From Actinomortierella ambigua (lineage: Eukaryota > Mortierellomycota > Mortierellomycetes > Mortierellales > Mortierellaceae), in NCBI GenBank assembly GCA_016098155.1, contig JAAAJB010000038.1, positions 43,523 to 107,522 of the forward strand: a stretch of 64,000 bases of DNA, read 5' to 3'. Below the pieces are notes generated by a model. That model saw only the letters and a program-made list of their open reading frames with translations. It was not told where the DNA came from and did not search any database. Both the position numbers and the translations under genes were made by a program. Each line of letters opens with the position of its first letter. Position 1 is the first letter of the stretch. Shown one piece after another: positions 27,082 through 59,700 of the stretch.

Positions 27082-27164
27082 CCGAGAATAGCTCAGTTGG
27101 TAGAGCGGGAGACTGTAGCTTTAAAGTTATCTCTAGGTCCCTGGTTCGAATCCGGGTTCTCGGA
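27082..27164 (+). tRNA. tRNA-Tyr (GUA) with 10-nt intron
   Basis: Acceptor stem CCGAGAA pairs with TTCTCGG, discriminator A. The D arm is GCTC...GAGC. The anticodon stem GGAGA pairs with TCTCT, with loop bases CTGTAG before a 10-nt insert CTTTAAAGTT and A38 after it. The T arm contains GGTTCGAATCC. Anticodon GTA reads Tyr codons. The intron sits at the canonical place one base after the anticodon, as in other eukaryotic tRNA-Tyr genes. A TTTT tract at 27168-27171 fits Pol III termination. CCA is not encoded. Confidence 0.95.
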
Positions 27165-51358: not shown

Positions 51359-54300
51359 ATGGAAGACACTCTTGCACCCTCACCACATATCGCAGACTCT
51401 GTAGAGGGGTCTACCGTCACCAGCGGTGATCCTTACTCAACAGCCCTGGCAGCCTCGAGGGCAGCCACAGCCTCGTTAGACGGACAACCCTCCGACCCAT
51501 GTGCCCCTTCAACACCACATGAAAGGCAGCATGGACAGCAGGCACAGGAGGAAGAGTCAGTCCCCCCTGACGATACTACTGCTGCTTCTGTTGCTGCCAG
51601 TGTTGCTGCCAGTACATCGCCCAGCGGACCCTCTCCTCCCTCGAGCCCTCTGACACAACATGTGAAGACCGATACCAGCACTGCCAGCGCAGGGGCATGT
51701 GCAGGCAATGCGGTCAATGCGCCCCCAACCCTCCTGTCCCCTCAGACCACGCCCGAGATCTCTGTCACGCCGAGCGATCATGGCTCCCCATGGTCGGTGT
51801 CTAGCGACTATGCTGATCCAAAGACACCGTACAATCTTACACCAGACAGGAACCAGGCCTACATGGACGACCACCATGCCTCCCTCTCCAACAACCAGAC
51901 CCATCATCGTTCACCCTCCGATTCAGACATCATCGACCGTCTGCGCGCCTACCGCGAATGCGAGGTCACCACCCCGACCTTGGAACAGATGGGTCTCGAC
52001 CAGCTGGACGAAGCAGACCTGCGCATGCTCCTCCAGAGCGCATACGAGGTGATCCAAGAGAAAGAACGAGGCAAGTTATCGTACACTCTCACACATATAG
52101 ACACGCACTCTCTATCTCTCTCTTTTTTTTTCACGGGAGAAAGATAAAGCATGGATGAAGGAGGAGAGGACCGTATCTCCCTTGCCCATCGTGAAACGAG
52201 ATAATGCTGCACATCATGCTGCAGATGTTCAATCTCTCCTTGTCATCTCTCATGTGTGTGTGCCACACCTCTCTTCCTCTCCCCTCCCCCTTCCTCCTCT
52301 CTCTCTCTCTCGCTCTCAACTTCTCGCCCTCTCTTTGTATGCCCTTGACCTTCTACCCTTTTTCCTCGACAGATTGGAATGGCCAGTGCTAGGTTGCAGC
52401 AATGGAAGAGAAAAAAAAAAGGGGAAAGAAAGGGCGTGAGCCACTTCTCTCCCCTCCCTGATCCTCCTCCTCTCGCTCTCTTTCTCCTTCTCCTTCTCCC
52501 ACGCATGATTTCGCAACTAGCACGCTCCTCTTGCTCTCTGCCTGTCAGTGCTCACTTGCAAATGGCCATATGGCCGTAATAGTCCCTCCCTGCTGACATC
52601 TTGTTGAAAGTGTGGCTCTGATATCCATCACACGTCTGTATCTGTAATAATATACCCATATTTGATCGTCCGATGCTAACCTTGTGTACATACACACCCC
52701 CCACACACACCACACAAAACCACATGCTAGACCTTGACATGGCTGCCATGATGGGCAAGGACTTGGTCGAATCGAACGCCACTCTCCAGGCAAAGTACGA
52801 GCATATCCTATCGCAACTCCGCCAACAACGGGCCAGCCGGTCCCGCCAGCTTACTCCACCACGACGCATCATCCTCTCGCCAACCCCTGACATGATTGTT
52901 GTCGAGTCAGCGGAGGATGGCACTCCCTTAAGCAGCGACGACCAAGACTGGATTGACTTTGAGCCCACAACGAGGCCTCTGCACCACAGCTTTCCAAACT
53001 CGCCAGCCCACGGGAGCTCATTCCCCTCAGTGAGCTTTCGTCGGAGCGCCAGCACCCACTCTGGTCTCTCCCGATCACGATCCAGAGCCGATATTGAAAA
53101 AATGAGCACCCTAGAGAACCTCAATTCGGAGCTGCAAGCCAAGGTCGAGGCCGCCACCAAGGATCTCAAGCAAGGACGTCGACAGGCCTTTAAGCACCAT
53201 CGCAAAGCAGAGAAGGAGCTCAAAGCGACCAAGGATGAACTGGATCGGACCATGGTCAAAGTACAGGATCTTGAAGAACAGAATCGCCGGTTGATCGAGG
53301 CAAGCAAGATGATCCGTATGCGGAGAATCATGCTCAAGAACCAGCTGCCAGCACCTGGTTCGATCCCGGGCTCGACCATGGCCAATATGGCCGTCGAGAT
53401 GCAGGGCGACGAGGCCACCATCCAGGAGATGCTTGCCGAGGACAACCGCATCTTTGAGGAGCTCAAGGAGAGACTGCAATTGATGGAGCGCACGAATGCA
53501 CACCTGACTCAACAGAAGCAAGAGGCGGAAAATAAGACCCACAAGGCCACAGAGGATTTAAAGGAGTTGCAGAAGGAGCGTGAAGAACTCTACACGACAC
53601 TGTGCGAGCTTTCAGATCTGCAAACCGCCTATAACAAACAGGAACAGCATGTCAGGGAGCTGGAACAGAGCGTCACCGAACTGCAGTCAACCATCAGCAC
53701 CATGACTTCGCGCCTCTCCCAGGCCAACTCGCAGGCCAACTCACCCCTGCTATCGCCGGTCGAGCCCTTGTCCCCAACCCAATCGCTGTGGCGACGGGAC
53801 GATGCCGATTTTAAGGCGCTCAAGACGATTATGCATGGCTCAAATCCGCAGCCTGTCGCATTAAAGTCGCCGGGCCTGCGAGGCAAACGCCAACCACGTC
53901 GGACACTATTGGCAGAACTCGAGAGCGAGTGGTTCCGGGATTTGTCATTCTTTGGTCTACCACGTGTTCTTCAACAACAGCAGCAGCAGGATCACGAGGG
54001 CGCATATGACCCCCATCACAATCCTCCTCAAGGTCGCCGCCACAGCAAGGGACCCAAGGCGATCAAAAACACGTTCGACTCGGAGTCAGAGTCATTTGTC
54101 AGTGACGTTGGGGGGCGTGTCAAGGGCTGGCGCGATGGTCTGCAGCAGGAGATGGATACCGAATCGGCATGCGAATCAACCCATTGCATCCGCAAGCGCC
54201 GACGTGTATACCAGTATGGCGGAAGTGACACGGAAGGCAGTATGGGCCCGCGCGACAATGAGCTCCCCAGTGGTCGATCACCTTACGGACGTCATTCCCC

Positions 54301-54844
54301 ATCACCTGGCCAGGGTCGGGAGGAAGTTGTCGTTCACGATGATGATGACGACAGTGATATTGAGGCGTTTCAGCGTGAGCAAGAACGGCGTCGCCGACTT
54401 CGCCACCACCGTCGGATCATGGATGTTGGCGAGAGTGGTGATGAGGGTGTGATGTCAGACGCCTCAGATCCACACATGTTGCATCACCAGGGCCGACCTC
54501 GCCGGCCATCGACGCCTGGTTGCAGTTGTCATCTGTACGAGGACGACTATCACGGTGGCTACGGCTACTCAAGCTACGACGATGTGATGTCCGAGGAAGA
54601 GAGTGTGACTGGCTGGGCACACTTTGAAGACTTTGATGCGTCGTCGCATGGATATGACAAGTACCGCGACGGACACTACTTGGGCTACCGCCGGCGTCGC
54701 GGCATCATGGGCATGGTCGAGGGCGTGTTCCTGTTCCTCCGACTGGTTTGGCGATGGTGCCGGTTCATGGTCATCCTGTCGACGGCGTTGGGCATTGCCA
54801 TCTACCGTGGACCCGACGCTCTTCTCACGGACGGCCACTATTAG
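51359..54844 (+). CDS. Membrane-anchored coiled-coil protein with dynein-adaptor CC1 box
   Basis: Exons 51359-52070 and 52731-54844 give 941 aa. The intron (660 nt) uses a GC donor (CGAG/GCAAGT) and a TAG acceptor; codon phases agree. The join creates EKERDLDMAAMMGKDLVE (residues about 233-250), which fits the CC1 box (AAxxG core, then LxExN) that binds dynein light intermediate chain in BICD, BICDR, HAP1 and TRAK adaptors. Before it lies a Ser/Thr/Pro-rich region of about 200 residues. After it come a linker and a long coiled coil (about 362-590) with heptads such as LEEQNRRLIEASKM. A possible Spindly-like site IFEEL is at 478-482. The C-terminus has acidic and Arg/His-rich segments, then a tail-anchor-like hydrophobic helix (about 901-929). 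The role as motor adaptor is inferred from the motif. AATAAA at 55280. Confidence 0.8.
52071..52730 (+). other. GC-AG intron of the CC1-box gene
   Basis: The donor reads CGAG/GCAAGTTA, the usual context of the minor GC donor class, and the acceptor CATGCTAG. No GT donor nearby preserves both frame and the conserved motif. The intron is long (660 nt) and CT-rich. Confidence 0.75.
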
Positions 54845-55878: not shown

Positions 55879-56787
55879 TTAGTTCTTCTTGCTCTTGCTG
55901 TTGCTCTTCTTGCTTTTGCTGTTGCTCTTCTTGCTCTTGCTCTTGGGAACACGAATGGTGACTGACTTGCGGGCCTTGGAGGTGAAAAGCTGACTGCCAG
56001 CATTGCTGTTGGGAAACTCGGCGAGCTTGATGGACTTGGGGCCATAGTTGATGATGAGGAGCTCCTTGCCCTTCAGCTCGCCACCGTTTTTACCCTTGAT
56101 CTTCATGTCAACGCAGTTGGAGTACAGCTCACGGTTGCCGACGGCGTTGTTCTGTAGATTTGAGGAATGATTAGATTGAGAAAGACATGTGTGTGTTAGA
56201 GGTGGGAGCTGTATGAAAAGAAACAAGGGGAGGGGGGGCAGAGGAGGGTTGTGGGACGAGAAAGGAGTAAAAAAAAGTAGATGCAAAACGAGGAGGAGGT
56301 AAACGACAGAAAAAAAAAAAAGACTTACCCAGAGCCACTGGAAGATGACGGTGCCCGAAGGAGCGTTCGAGGGGATCTTGACAGGGATGGAGTAGGTGGC
56401 AGAATTGACGTTGCCGCGCAAGCACGAGCCGAGGACATCCTTGATAACAGCCCACTTCTTACCACCATCGTACGACAGAGCGAACTGGCAGTGTCCACCG
56501 CCGTGAGGCGCACCAATGTCAAACTTGACATTGATGGTCTGGCCAGCTTTGTAAGTGGGGATGTTCTTGGTGACGGCCTTTGTGTGCCTGCACATAGGCA
56601 TGCCGATCTGGCTAGCGGTGCCGATGGGTGCACGGATGTTGTAGTCGATTGACTGGCCTGGTGGAGGGGCAGGGCAACCTTTATACGAGCCATAGCGGGG
56701 GCAGGGCGATGACACCGAGACATGGGCCTCGGCGGTGATGGCGGCGAAAGCCACAAAGGCAGCGATGAGGGTGGACTTGAACAGCAT
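55879..56787 (-). CDS. Secreted lytic polysaccharide monooxygenase, AA11-like
   Basis: Exons 56329-56787 and 55879-56151 (phase 0) give 243 aa. LPMOs oxidatively cleave polysaccharides with a copper held by a histidine brace; AA11 members act on chitin. A signal peptide of 21 residues ends AEA, leaving His22 as the mature N-terminus, the first brace ligand. The second is His95 in GAPHGGGHCQFALSYD, and the axial aromatic is likely Tyr163 in GNRELYSNC. Other family signs are FQWLW just before the intron and paired Cys. The domain is followed by a C-terminal tail of SKSKKSN repeats instead of a chitin-binding module. The family call rests on resemblance to AA11 motifs; another AA class is possible. 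Likely roles are remodelling of own chitin or attack on foreign chitin. Confidence 0.82.
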   Translation of the reverse strand: MLFKSTLIAAFVAFAAITAEAHVSVSSPCPRYGSYKGCPAPPPGQSIDYNIRAPIGTASQIGMPMCRHTKAVTKNIPTYKAGQTINVKFDIGAPHGGGHCQFALSYDGGKKWAVIKDVLGSCLRGNVNSATYSIPVKIPSNAPSGTVIFQWLWVSLFFFSVVYLLLVLHLLFFTPFSSHNPPLPPLPLFLFIQLPPLTHTCLSQSNHSSNLQNNAVGNRELYSNCVDMKIKGKNGGELKGKELLIINYGPKSIKLAEFPNSNAGSQLFTSKARKSVTIRVPKSKSKKSNSKSKKSNSKSKKN

Positions 56788-59700
56788 GATGAATGAGAGT
56801 TTTGAGCGGAAAGAAGGTGTTGTTGTGGAGGAAAATTAATAGATTAAATGCACGTTCAGGCGAGGAGGGGAAGGGCACAGAGTATGTCCTTGAGGATGAG
56901 TGTGGAGAGAAGACTGCTGTTGACTGAGGATGCAAATGGTGGTAAAGGACGAGGGGGGGGGTTTATATATCCAAAGATGACAAAGAGCTGAGAGCGGTCA
57001 AGCTGCAATGTACATCCGAGACTTTGCAGGAGAGAGTGAGGAGAGGAGGGGGAGGGGATCGACGTAGCCCTCCAGTAGCTGAAGGGGTTTGAGTGGACAT
57101 ACACTTTCTTCCATGAGCCACTACAAGGGACTGGGTGCTGCTGCCCGGCGTGGATCAATTAGCCCTCTGCCCTGTGGTGTAGTTGAACCTTGATAAACCT
57201 TGAGAATAAGGTTGATGTTAGTGGGAGGGGGGGGGCAGGAAGGCCGCCACTGCTGTTGTTGAAGACTGACAGACAGAAAGAGGGCTGCCAGACCGACTGA
57301 TGGCTGACTGCGCGGCAACGTATGATGTTTCGAGCTGTGTCAAAGAGAGTTATGTACACTCCTAAAGGTACCCGCCACATTCGTGAGCTTGCTGGTTTTC
57401 CTTCCTCACCTTCTCAATCGGCCATAGAGTGAATTAGGGTGCAACAAAAGCAAACAGCAGAGCGAGAGAAGGGAGGGAAGAAAAATAGAGAGCCGCGCAA
57501 TATACCTTGTGTCAATTTCGATCGGATATTGGGTTCATTTACACAAGCGTTTATTGCAGCAAAGGCTAAGGCTATGGAGGAGACCCTGAAGCTTGCCTTG
57601 GAAAAATCTTTTTACTTGATATGCGTACACGGGATTCATCCCACTGCTACCATACATGCAAGCCCGACAGGGTTCGGTTTCCAAACATATTGACGCGTAT
57701 GTCTCTGCCTTGCTTGCGACTTTCAGACAAACCCGCCTCCAATATCCGTGTTGTCGTGGGTGGCCCCCCTGGATTCAGCCCTGCCTTTTTCTTCCCCAAA
57801 GTCCAAAGCCTGCGCAGAGGCAACACATTCCGACATGTTGATGCTTGACTCCATCCCTCACACCCTGTATCTGATTCTTGTCCCCCCCCCTCCCCTGCTG
57901 CCAGGAATCCAAGACAAGGGGAGGGGGTCATTCTTGGTCACAAAGGAGCAAAGGAACAAACAGGGTGAGAAACTTGGAGTAACGACAAGTTGGACGTTTG
58001 TACCTTGCAGCCCCTTCCCTTCGATTTTTAGCCATAGTCCAATTCCACTTTGTGAATGACCACATGGACTCCCAAAGCCAAAATCTTGAAACGATTGCAA
58101 ACCTCCCATTTTGTGGTCATGCCTCTGCTCCTGTCTCCTCCACCCCCCCCCCTCTTGGCCATCTCCGCGCGGCTGAACCCCCTGCATGCACTGCTCTGAT
58201 GCTGATAGGAGCCAAAACCTTTTCATTTCTCCTCTCTGTGCCACAAGAATTTGCGAGAAACTGCAGGTGTTGGCGAGCGAACGATAGATGGAAAAAAACA
58301 AAAGAAAGAAAGAACATAGAAGGAAGGAAGCATCTACGTAGTTCAAGGCAAGTAACGACGTTACTGCATTTCACCCCGTACCGTACGCACTGCCTTTGGT
58401 GGCATGTTTACCCTGCAGGTGCTCTGTGTTATCGTACGCCATCGATAAGACACATTGCAATAACACAGTACTGTACTCTACTATACAGTACAACCCTGCC
58501 TGGCGTCTTCTTCGCTCCACTTCCACCCTCCCCTCCCTTCTCCATGCATATTGCTCACTGCATGGAAGTACAATGTGCAGTACCAGTTGACCTTCTCTGA
58601 ACAAAAAAGGGTGGAAAAGTCGACCATAGACTAACATTGGCACTGGCGGACTCCCAAAAGAAGACCTTTTTTTTCCGACATGGATGACCCATCCTCCCTC
58701 CTTGCACCACATTATTATTGTGGCCTTTACTAACACGTCCAGCACTTCGATCGGAGACGAACATCGAGACAAATTGAGGGGATGTGCTACCTCGACACTG
58801 GGGCTTCTCCTCTCCGAGTTTCGCTTTGACTCTCCGTCCATTGGGATCCCAGTGGGAGCTGCTGAGGGTTATGGCGCCATAAGAACCCAGAGCAGAGAAT
58901 TTCAATCTCCTCAATGAGCGACTCTCGCCTCTAATAATTACCACAAGCCATTAGACGAGAGAGTAACGCATCCCCGTGGCAAACATGTAGCTAGAGGAAC
59001 ACACCCCTCCCTTTGCAGGTAACATAGATGATCCGCCTTCAAAAACGGCTCTCCCCTCGGATGATCCTTTCCGGAGTTGACTAGCAGATAGGAGGGATAG
59101 TTGATAGCATGATTGGCTGTCGATCATATCATTGCTTGGTTAGAATAGCTGTGGGCGGTAGTCTATCTGACCTTTTTTTTTAACCTTTAGCTAACGTGTT
59201 GCCTTGTTCAAGAGATTGCATGGCCAACCACAACTATTCGTCTCTCCAACTCACTCTTTTTGTTCGCCTCTTGTTTAGTAGCAGAACAAGGTTCTCGCTA
59301 GCAGTTTGTCGCATGTTTGTCTAAAGTTTAAGACCAAATGACAGCAAAGGTAGCCTTTCGTGAGGCCAGACCGAAAACACAGGTTCCTGAGTTGTTTTTC
59401 CAATATGGGACAAGGACTTGGCTCTCGGCCGAATGACCTAGATTTTTTGGCGCCACTTTCCATAGGGTGCCGCCACCACAAATAAAAAACGAAACCTAAA
59501 GCCTTAATGATAGAGTTAGGGCTCGACAGTGGGTGAGAATAAACGCAATTGCCTGTTTCTTCTGTTTCCATACCCAGGCTCAGCAAGAAGGTCAACAGCA
59601 GCAATCGAACCACTCAGCGATCGATTGGAGGTAGTGGGATGAAACTACAACCACGGTAACCACCACCACCACTGGATAACCGGGCTACCACCACCACTAG

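Follow-up and report, generated by a model that had tools for sequence, protein, structure and literature searches.

The 64,000-nucleotide stretch of Actinomortierella ambigua DNA analyzed here (the window) carries, on its forward strand, a two-exon gene encoding a protein of 941 residues with a segment that matches the CC1 box of dynein adaptors, a subfamily listed as comprising BICD1-2, BICDL1-2, Spindly, TRAK1-2 and HAP1 (PMC7655957). Judged by its sequence, the product is probably a dimeric, membrane-anchored CC1-box adaptor of dynein and dynactin. The gene opens with an ATG at 51359, ends with a stop codon at 54842-54844, and is interrupted by a GC-AG intron, whose donor AG/GCAAGT lies directly after 52070 and whose acceptor TGCTAG ends at 52730. 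The in-frame join of the two exons gives EKERDLDMAAMMGKDLVESN, and in-frame stops are met when the intron is read through instead of being spliced.

An earlier reading of this DNA from sequence only had proposed that the splice itself creates the CC1-box match, and the orthologues bear this out. Homologue searches that scored 8000, 7997 and 282 candidates retrieved 30 proteins, all in one orthologue group, thus supplying the orthologues that had been called for; for 29 of them (all but P0023) the source is named, and the genera are those of Mortierellaceae, a placement looked up for Actinomortierella ambigua. Because the method depends on 5-residue words in common, there may be more distant relatives. 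Sequence upstream of the two alanines of the box is found in 26 of the 30 orthologue models (the exceptions are P0001, P0016, P0023 and P0029), with identical spacing across the join in 25 of them and a spacing two residues shorter in P0018. The exon join is thus confirmed at the level of predicted proteins, where conserved sequence continues across it; the orthologue models are gene predictions and not RNA.

In a search of the genome (33.8 Mb, 846 contigs), a single locus was found for the A. ambigua orthologue P0002, which is identical to the whole 941-residue protein at 790/941 positions; exon 1 aligns with its residues 1-239. Exon 2 is identical at 696 of 704 residues to a second A. ambigua model from NCBI, P0001, from which exon 1 is absent: this model starts with MLDLDMAAMMGK, as read from an intronic ATG (at 52724 in the window), so that an N-terminal part of about 240 residues is missing. 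P0016 and P0023 also begin just upstream of the alanines. Public models may have lost the N-terminal part because of the unusual GC donor.

Evidence for a CC1 box

Identity as a CC1 box had been tied in advance to a hidden Markov model test, which it survived. The Pfam profile HAP1_N (PF04849) matches residues 231-272 of the whole protein with E=3e-5 (23.8 bits) and the CC1 fragment alone with E=2.4e-7 (30.7 bits, profile positions 71-112), to be compared with matches of 29.3 bits at positions 74-108 for the CC1 fragment of BICDR1 and 59.3 bits at positions 73-109 for TRAK2. The profile is also matched at E<=0.01 by 20/29 orthologues. For the opposite direction, a CC1-region profile of 15 rows, built from the window protein and 14 of the 30 orthologues (one shortened by hand), was searched against 177,635 PDB sequences. 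Its top five matches are one to TRAK2, at E=0.0014, and four to sequences of BICDR1, at E=0.0027-0.0044, and the sole further match has E=0.31, so that all five below E=0.3 are CC1-box adaptors. In the alignments printed, those of the best four, AA falls on AA and G on G, and the reversed profile, used as a control, gives one match only, at E=0.79. With homology to known CC1 boxes found in both search directions, the assignment of a CC1 box is well supported by sequence comparison.

The details of the core point the same way. The AA, the G and the following L are invariant in 29/29 sequences that reach the site (one of the 30 does not). In the BICD2-LIC1 crystal structure, the first Ala occupies core position d and the Gly core position a (PMC7655957); the best register of the window protein likewise has A242 at heptad d and G246 at a, and this register is best or tied-best in 21 of the 26 orthologues tested. 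The heptad-core residues read IKLAGLNLYIL in the window protein, IKLAGLNMYML in BICDR1 and LRLAGLNLNLL in TRAK2, with 9/11 core residues equal between the window protein and BICDR1 and 16/39 residues identical over the CC1 coil. Coil is predicted on both sides of AAxxG, with a drop in score at 243-246, the motif itself. As an observation in its own right, the Linnemannia orthologues P0017, P0019, P0020, P0021 and P0022 carry an insertion of 28-35 residues, made up of coil repeats of the LEATNxHL type, directly after the CC1 box.

Domain organization and partner genes

The features of the gene are collected in Table 1. Coils were estimated with a COILS-type matrix, with a piece of Hook as positive control and a piece of light intermediate chain (LIC) as negative control.

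Table 1. Features of the candidate adaptor gene, with positions in the window
Feature	Position	Strand	Description
Exon 1	51359..52070	+	residues 1-238 (last codon split); S/T-P-rich N-terminus and upstream half of CC1-box coil; frame open from the ATG, ending at a GC donor
CC1-box coil, exon-1 part (residues 215-237)	52001..52070	+	coil estimate, heptad register; HAP1_N match starts here
GC-AG intron, 660 bp	52071..52730	+	interrupts CC1-box coil in codon 238, four residues upstream of the two alanines
Exon 2	52731..54844	+	residues 238-941 and stop
CC1-box coil, exon-2 part (residues 238-274)	52731..52840	+	HAP1_N match, TRAK2 and BICDR1 matched by profile in PDB, heptad register
AAxxG core, AAMMG (residues 242-246)	52742..52756	+	predicted site for dynein light intermediate chain helix
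Linker (residues 275-355)	52841..53083	+	no coil predicted; several prolines; conserved blocks in alignment
Second coil (residues 356-443)	53084..53347	+	coil estimate
Break between coils, with LPAPGSIPGST (residues 444-468)	53348..53422	+	near-invariant in 29-row alignment
Third coil (residues 469-575)	53423..53743	+	coil estimate
IFEEL (residues 478-482), near start of third coil	53450..53464	+	Spindly-like; pattern in 30/30 orthologues
LLAEL (residues 630-634), after coil	53906..53920	+	Spindly-like; exact LxxE-hydrophobic fit; pattern in 29/29 aligned orthologues
Hydrophobic C-terminal stretch (residues 895-929)	54701..54805	+	probable membrane anchor; mean hydropathy 1.64 over 17 residues
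Short C-terminal tail (residues 930-941)	54806..54841	+	conserved up to last residues (alignment)

The long coiled coil of the sequence-only reading stands in part: coil is predicted in three segments (residues 215-274, 356-443 and 469-575), interrupted by the linker of about 80 residues and by the PAPGSIPGS break. At a COILS window of 21, the CC1 coil is predicted in 8/8 orthologues run; in the window protein it stops about 32 residues past AA and is basic there. The linker contains the conserved block RQLTPPRxIILSP and an acidic WxDFEP patch (residues 275-314, window 52841-52960), the LTPP being present in 24/30 orthologues. It is a guess that the proline-directed sites of the linker, lying near the CC1 box, might regulate it. 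A reading of the WxDFEP patch as a W-acidic kinesin motif was set aside, as its spacing does not fit LEWD. Further along, the coil breaks and a Spindly-like motif appears early in the coil that follows, a layout described for adaptors (PMC9481740).

The Spindly consensus is given as LxxE-hydrophobic (PMC11623564), and two segments of the protein come close to it. IFEEL, which had been placed about 230 residues downstream of the CC1 box, lies 236 residues after AAxxG (242 to 478), compared with 231 in BICDR1 (116 to 347). Across orthologues this distance varies from 222 to 286, mainly through the linker and the Linnemannia insertion, so the spacing match to BICDR1 is not itself evidence. The Spindly-like character of IFEEL is only partly sustained: the pattern is conserved throughout the orthologues, but Ile replaces Leu at the first consensus position. 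LLAEL, within a conserved RRTLLAELESEWFRDxSFF block, is the better match to the consensus at the sequence level, and by eye it resembles SLLSEIE of BICDR1. With L, I, V or M allowed at the first position, the window protein has six such patterns. MAVEM (457) and IFEEL (478) are conserved in 30/30 orthologues, LLAEL (630) in 29 and LESEW (634) in 27, whereas the remaining two are shared by 16 orthologues and by 1. Such patterns are common, and conservation alone therefore cannot single out a Spindly motif.

The C-terminal hydrophobic region consists of a 17-residue and a 14-residue piece, separated by RWCR. It is present in 27/30 orthologue models (missing in P0009, P0010 and P0030), in which the best 17-residue mean hydropathy ranges from 1.42 to 2.07. 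The earlier label of a tail-anchor-like helix is a fair one, with the qualification that the helix is borderline, divided by RWCR, and at most 1.64 in mean hydropathy over 17 residues. Our preferred reading is of one short transmembrane helix followed by the 12-residue tail RGPDALLTDGHY, with an amphipathic piece before the helix. The terminal residues differ among orthologues (GHY, GH, GQ, GR, R or EQ). Past the last hydrophobic piece, the tail has few residues and a slightly acidic character, for which reason a membrane of the endoplasmic reticulum, endosome or nuclear envelope might, by general rules, be somewhat likelier than that of mitochondria.

Genes for the expected partners are found in the same genome. 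A dynein light intermediate chain (DLIC) domain is encoded, and the next long open frame downstream of it reads QTEAISQFFQSLMNRK, including ISQFFQSLM, an FFxxLM helix; domain and frame appear to be parts of the same gene. Human LIC1 requires helix residues F447, F448, L451 and L452 to bind adaptors (PMC6336354), a pattern that ISQFFQSLM fits. On the dynactin side, a p62 gene and a p25 family match of 103.9 bits are present. Hook and a Num1-type PH protein are encoded by separate genes, and no AAxxG occurs in the sole open frame of more than 300 aa at the Num1-type locus (three forward frames, 3,339 bases). For BicD, no match in the genome reached the cut-off. The HAP1_N search of the genome missed the window gene, presumably because the intron splits the match; it returned three weaker matches (E 0.17-0.71) and, as its best, a nucleoporin-like FG-repeat protein with a coiled coil by eye, which was dropped. 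A BICDR1 fragment found nothing in the genome, a result that says little, as the intron splits the match.

Elsewhere in the window, a neighbouring gene on the minus strand (55879-56835) has a product that resembles lytic polysaccharide monooxygenases (Pfam LPMO_10, 29.8 bits against a cut-off of 23) and begins like a signal peptide, and ARAGORN called a tRNA-Tyr (GTA) at 27082-27164.

A membrane-anchored adaptor and its alternatives

Among known adaptors, BICDR1/BICDL1 is close in the CC1 coil, as seen in the shared core, the same HAP1_N positions and the similar distance from the CC1 box to the Spindly-like motif. The two differ in that PDB searches gave no other significant alignment, and in that the coil is here divided by a linker and followed by a C-terminal hydrophobic tail. 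TRAK1/2 and HAP1 share the HAP1_N match, and TRAK2 is the best PDB match of the orthologue profile, whereas only 42 of 307 HAP1_N positions are matched, below the cut-off, and no other TRAK/HAP1 domain is among the Pfam matches. TRAK has also been tied to mitochondria through Miro, while the protein described here seems to bring its own anchor. KASH5 is a dynein adaptor with its own transmembrane segment (PMC12581424), but it has EF-hands instead of a CC1 box, and a KASH tail, neither of which is seen in the window protein. Hook and Num1/Mcp5 are described as dynein adaptors of fungi (PMC7649786); the window protein has neither a Hook nor a PH domain among its Pfam matches. Its remaining Pfam matches are mostly generic coiled-coil families, and none of the 10 families listed at E<=10 is the BicD domain. 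Judged from its docking coil, the protein should function as CC1-box adaptors do; it is not assigned to the BICD, TRAK/HAP1 or Spindly group.

The mechanism that we propose begins with the CC1-box coil of a membrane-anchored dimer, which would recruit dynein through LIC; this docking step has good sequence evidence. A flexible linker rich in proline-directed sites would connect the CC1 coil to two further coils lying along dynactin. On weaker evidence, either IFEEL, after the coil break, or LLAEL, after the coil, may touch the p25 pocket at the pointed end of dynactin. Through its C-terminal hydrophobic segment, the adaptor would be anchored in a membrane at the cytosolic face, which would make cargo and adaptor one chain. 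Stated at its most specific, the proposal is that Mortierellaceae have an integral-membrane, activating CC1-box adaptor whose LIC-binding coil is separate from the dynactin-binding coil and carried by a flexible tether that can be phosphorylated; in this full form, we consider it slightly less likely than not.

Several observations weigh against an adaptor of this kind. In the CC1 region, the 23.8 bits of the window protein do not reach the curated Pfam cut-off of HAP1_N, 33.9 bits; nine of 29 orthologues have no match at E<=0.01, and the five for which bits were shown score 18.7-27.5, all below the cut-off (the precomputed Pfam column of the protein database places PF04849 on 6/30 orthologues, including three of these five). 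Searched alone against PDB, the CC1 fragment ranks BICDR1 first at only E=0.02, with TRAK2 at E=0.55. The profile of the whole family found no adaptor at E<=1 in PDB, only unrelated chains, for which reason the CC1 region was cut out for a profile of its own. BICD2 and Spindly chains are absent from the PDB matches of that CC1-region profile, which are confined to BICDR1 and TRAK2, and a PDB search with the BICDR1 fragment likewise gave no BICD2 or Spindly chain. Five of the 26 orthologues tested prefer another heptad register (four Linnemannia proteins with the insertion after the box, and P0018 with its different join), and at a COILS window of 28 the CC1 coil is not predicted in three of the eight orthologues run (P0003, P0007 and P0013). 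In canonical adaptors, a single coil 35-39 nm long connects the CC1 box with the break before the Spindly motif (PMC9481740); here the linker splits that coil, and the predicted coil from the CC1 box to IFEEL totals about 150 residues. HBS1 (Gln and an acidic patch) was not recognized in the first coil, as judged without an HBS1 model. Neither Spindly-like segment, IFEEL or LLAEL, matches BICDR1 by phmmer (for LLAEL, no match at E<=10), the hydrophobicity of the tail is borderline, and the p25 repeat family also passes the cut-off in one of 14 control genomes. As a whole, the adaptor interpretation of the sequence-only reading is partly supported.

A first alternative starts from the short and broken coil between the CC1 box and IFEEL and from the unrecognized HBS1. 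A CC1 box as well supported as this one might bind LIC without activating dynein alone, the protein serving as a membrane-fixed recruiter, similar in effect to the short-coil adaptors RILP and JIP3 or to Nesprin-2, that passes dynein to, for example, fungal Hook, for which the genome has a gene. Nesprin-2 has a disordered region between its CC1 box and its Spindly motifs and still needs BicD2 (PMC11310688), and adaptors with coils of about 20 nm exist (PMC9481740). We consider a mere recruiter unlikely, though the strongest competitor, as two Spindly-like motifs are kept in 30/30 and 29/29 aligned orthologues, one of them past a coil break as in activating adaptors, and as the order of motifs is canonical here, unlike in Nesprin-2.

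If the CC1-like segment were convergent, the protein could be a coiled-coil membrane protein of the golgin-like or tethering kind, with no contact to dynein, since a coiled coil with a C-terminal membrane anchor is the general plan of golgins, and since the other Pfam matches are mostly to generic coiled-coil families. In both search directions, however, the CC1 coil finds or is found by CC1-box adaptors, the atypical residues of its core (Lys, Gly, Asn, Tyr) stand at the same positions in BICDR1, and AA and G are invariant in 29 sequences, which makes a golgin-like protein improbable. Lower still we rank a nuclear-envelope, KASH-like dynein adaptor, in which the C-terminal tail would lie in the perinuclear space and bind a SUN protein. 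KASH5 sets a precedent for a membrane-anchored activating adaptor (PMC12581424), and the tail is strongly conserved before its last residues; yet the terminal residues themselves are variable, the PPPX ending, a hallmark of KASH, is missing, and no EF-hand is among the Pfam matches, so that a KASH-like function is very improbable.

An adaptor of the membrane-anchored CC1-box type would be an addition to those named for fungi, Hook and the Num1-type cortical anchor (PMC7649786). In the open-access literature, judged by titles and abstract openings, no paper about a fungal CC1-box adaptor was found, nor one on Mortierella together with a dynein adaptor or on Num1, the CC1 box and dynein together. 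The protein has perhaps been overlooked, possibly because its motif lies on a GC-AG splice junction and P0001 lacks the first exon.

The conserved fungal gene suggests that CC1-box cargo adaptors are seemingly not confined to animals. A fungal CC1-box protein would suggest that this mode of docking is older than the animal-fungus split, or it would mark transfer or convergence. An integral-membrane, activating CC1-box adaptor, if true, would mean that the CC1-box module predates that split and would give the CC1-box class an adaptor that combines cargo and adaptor in one chain. The membrane-anchored version, if borne out, would offer a one-chain system in which to test how an adaptor works when its two docking sites are separated by a flexible gap.

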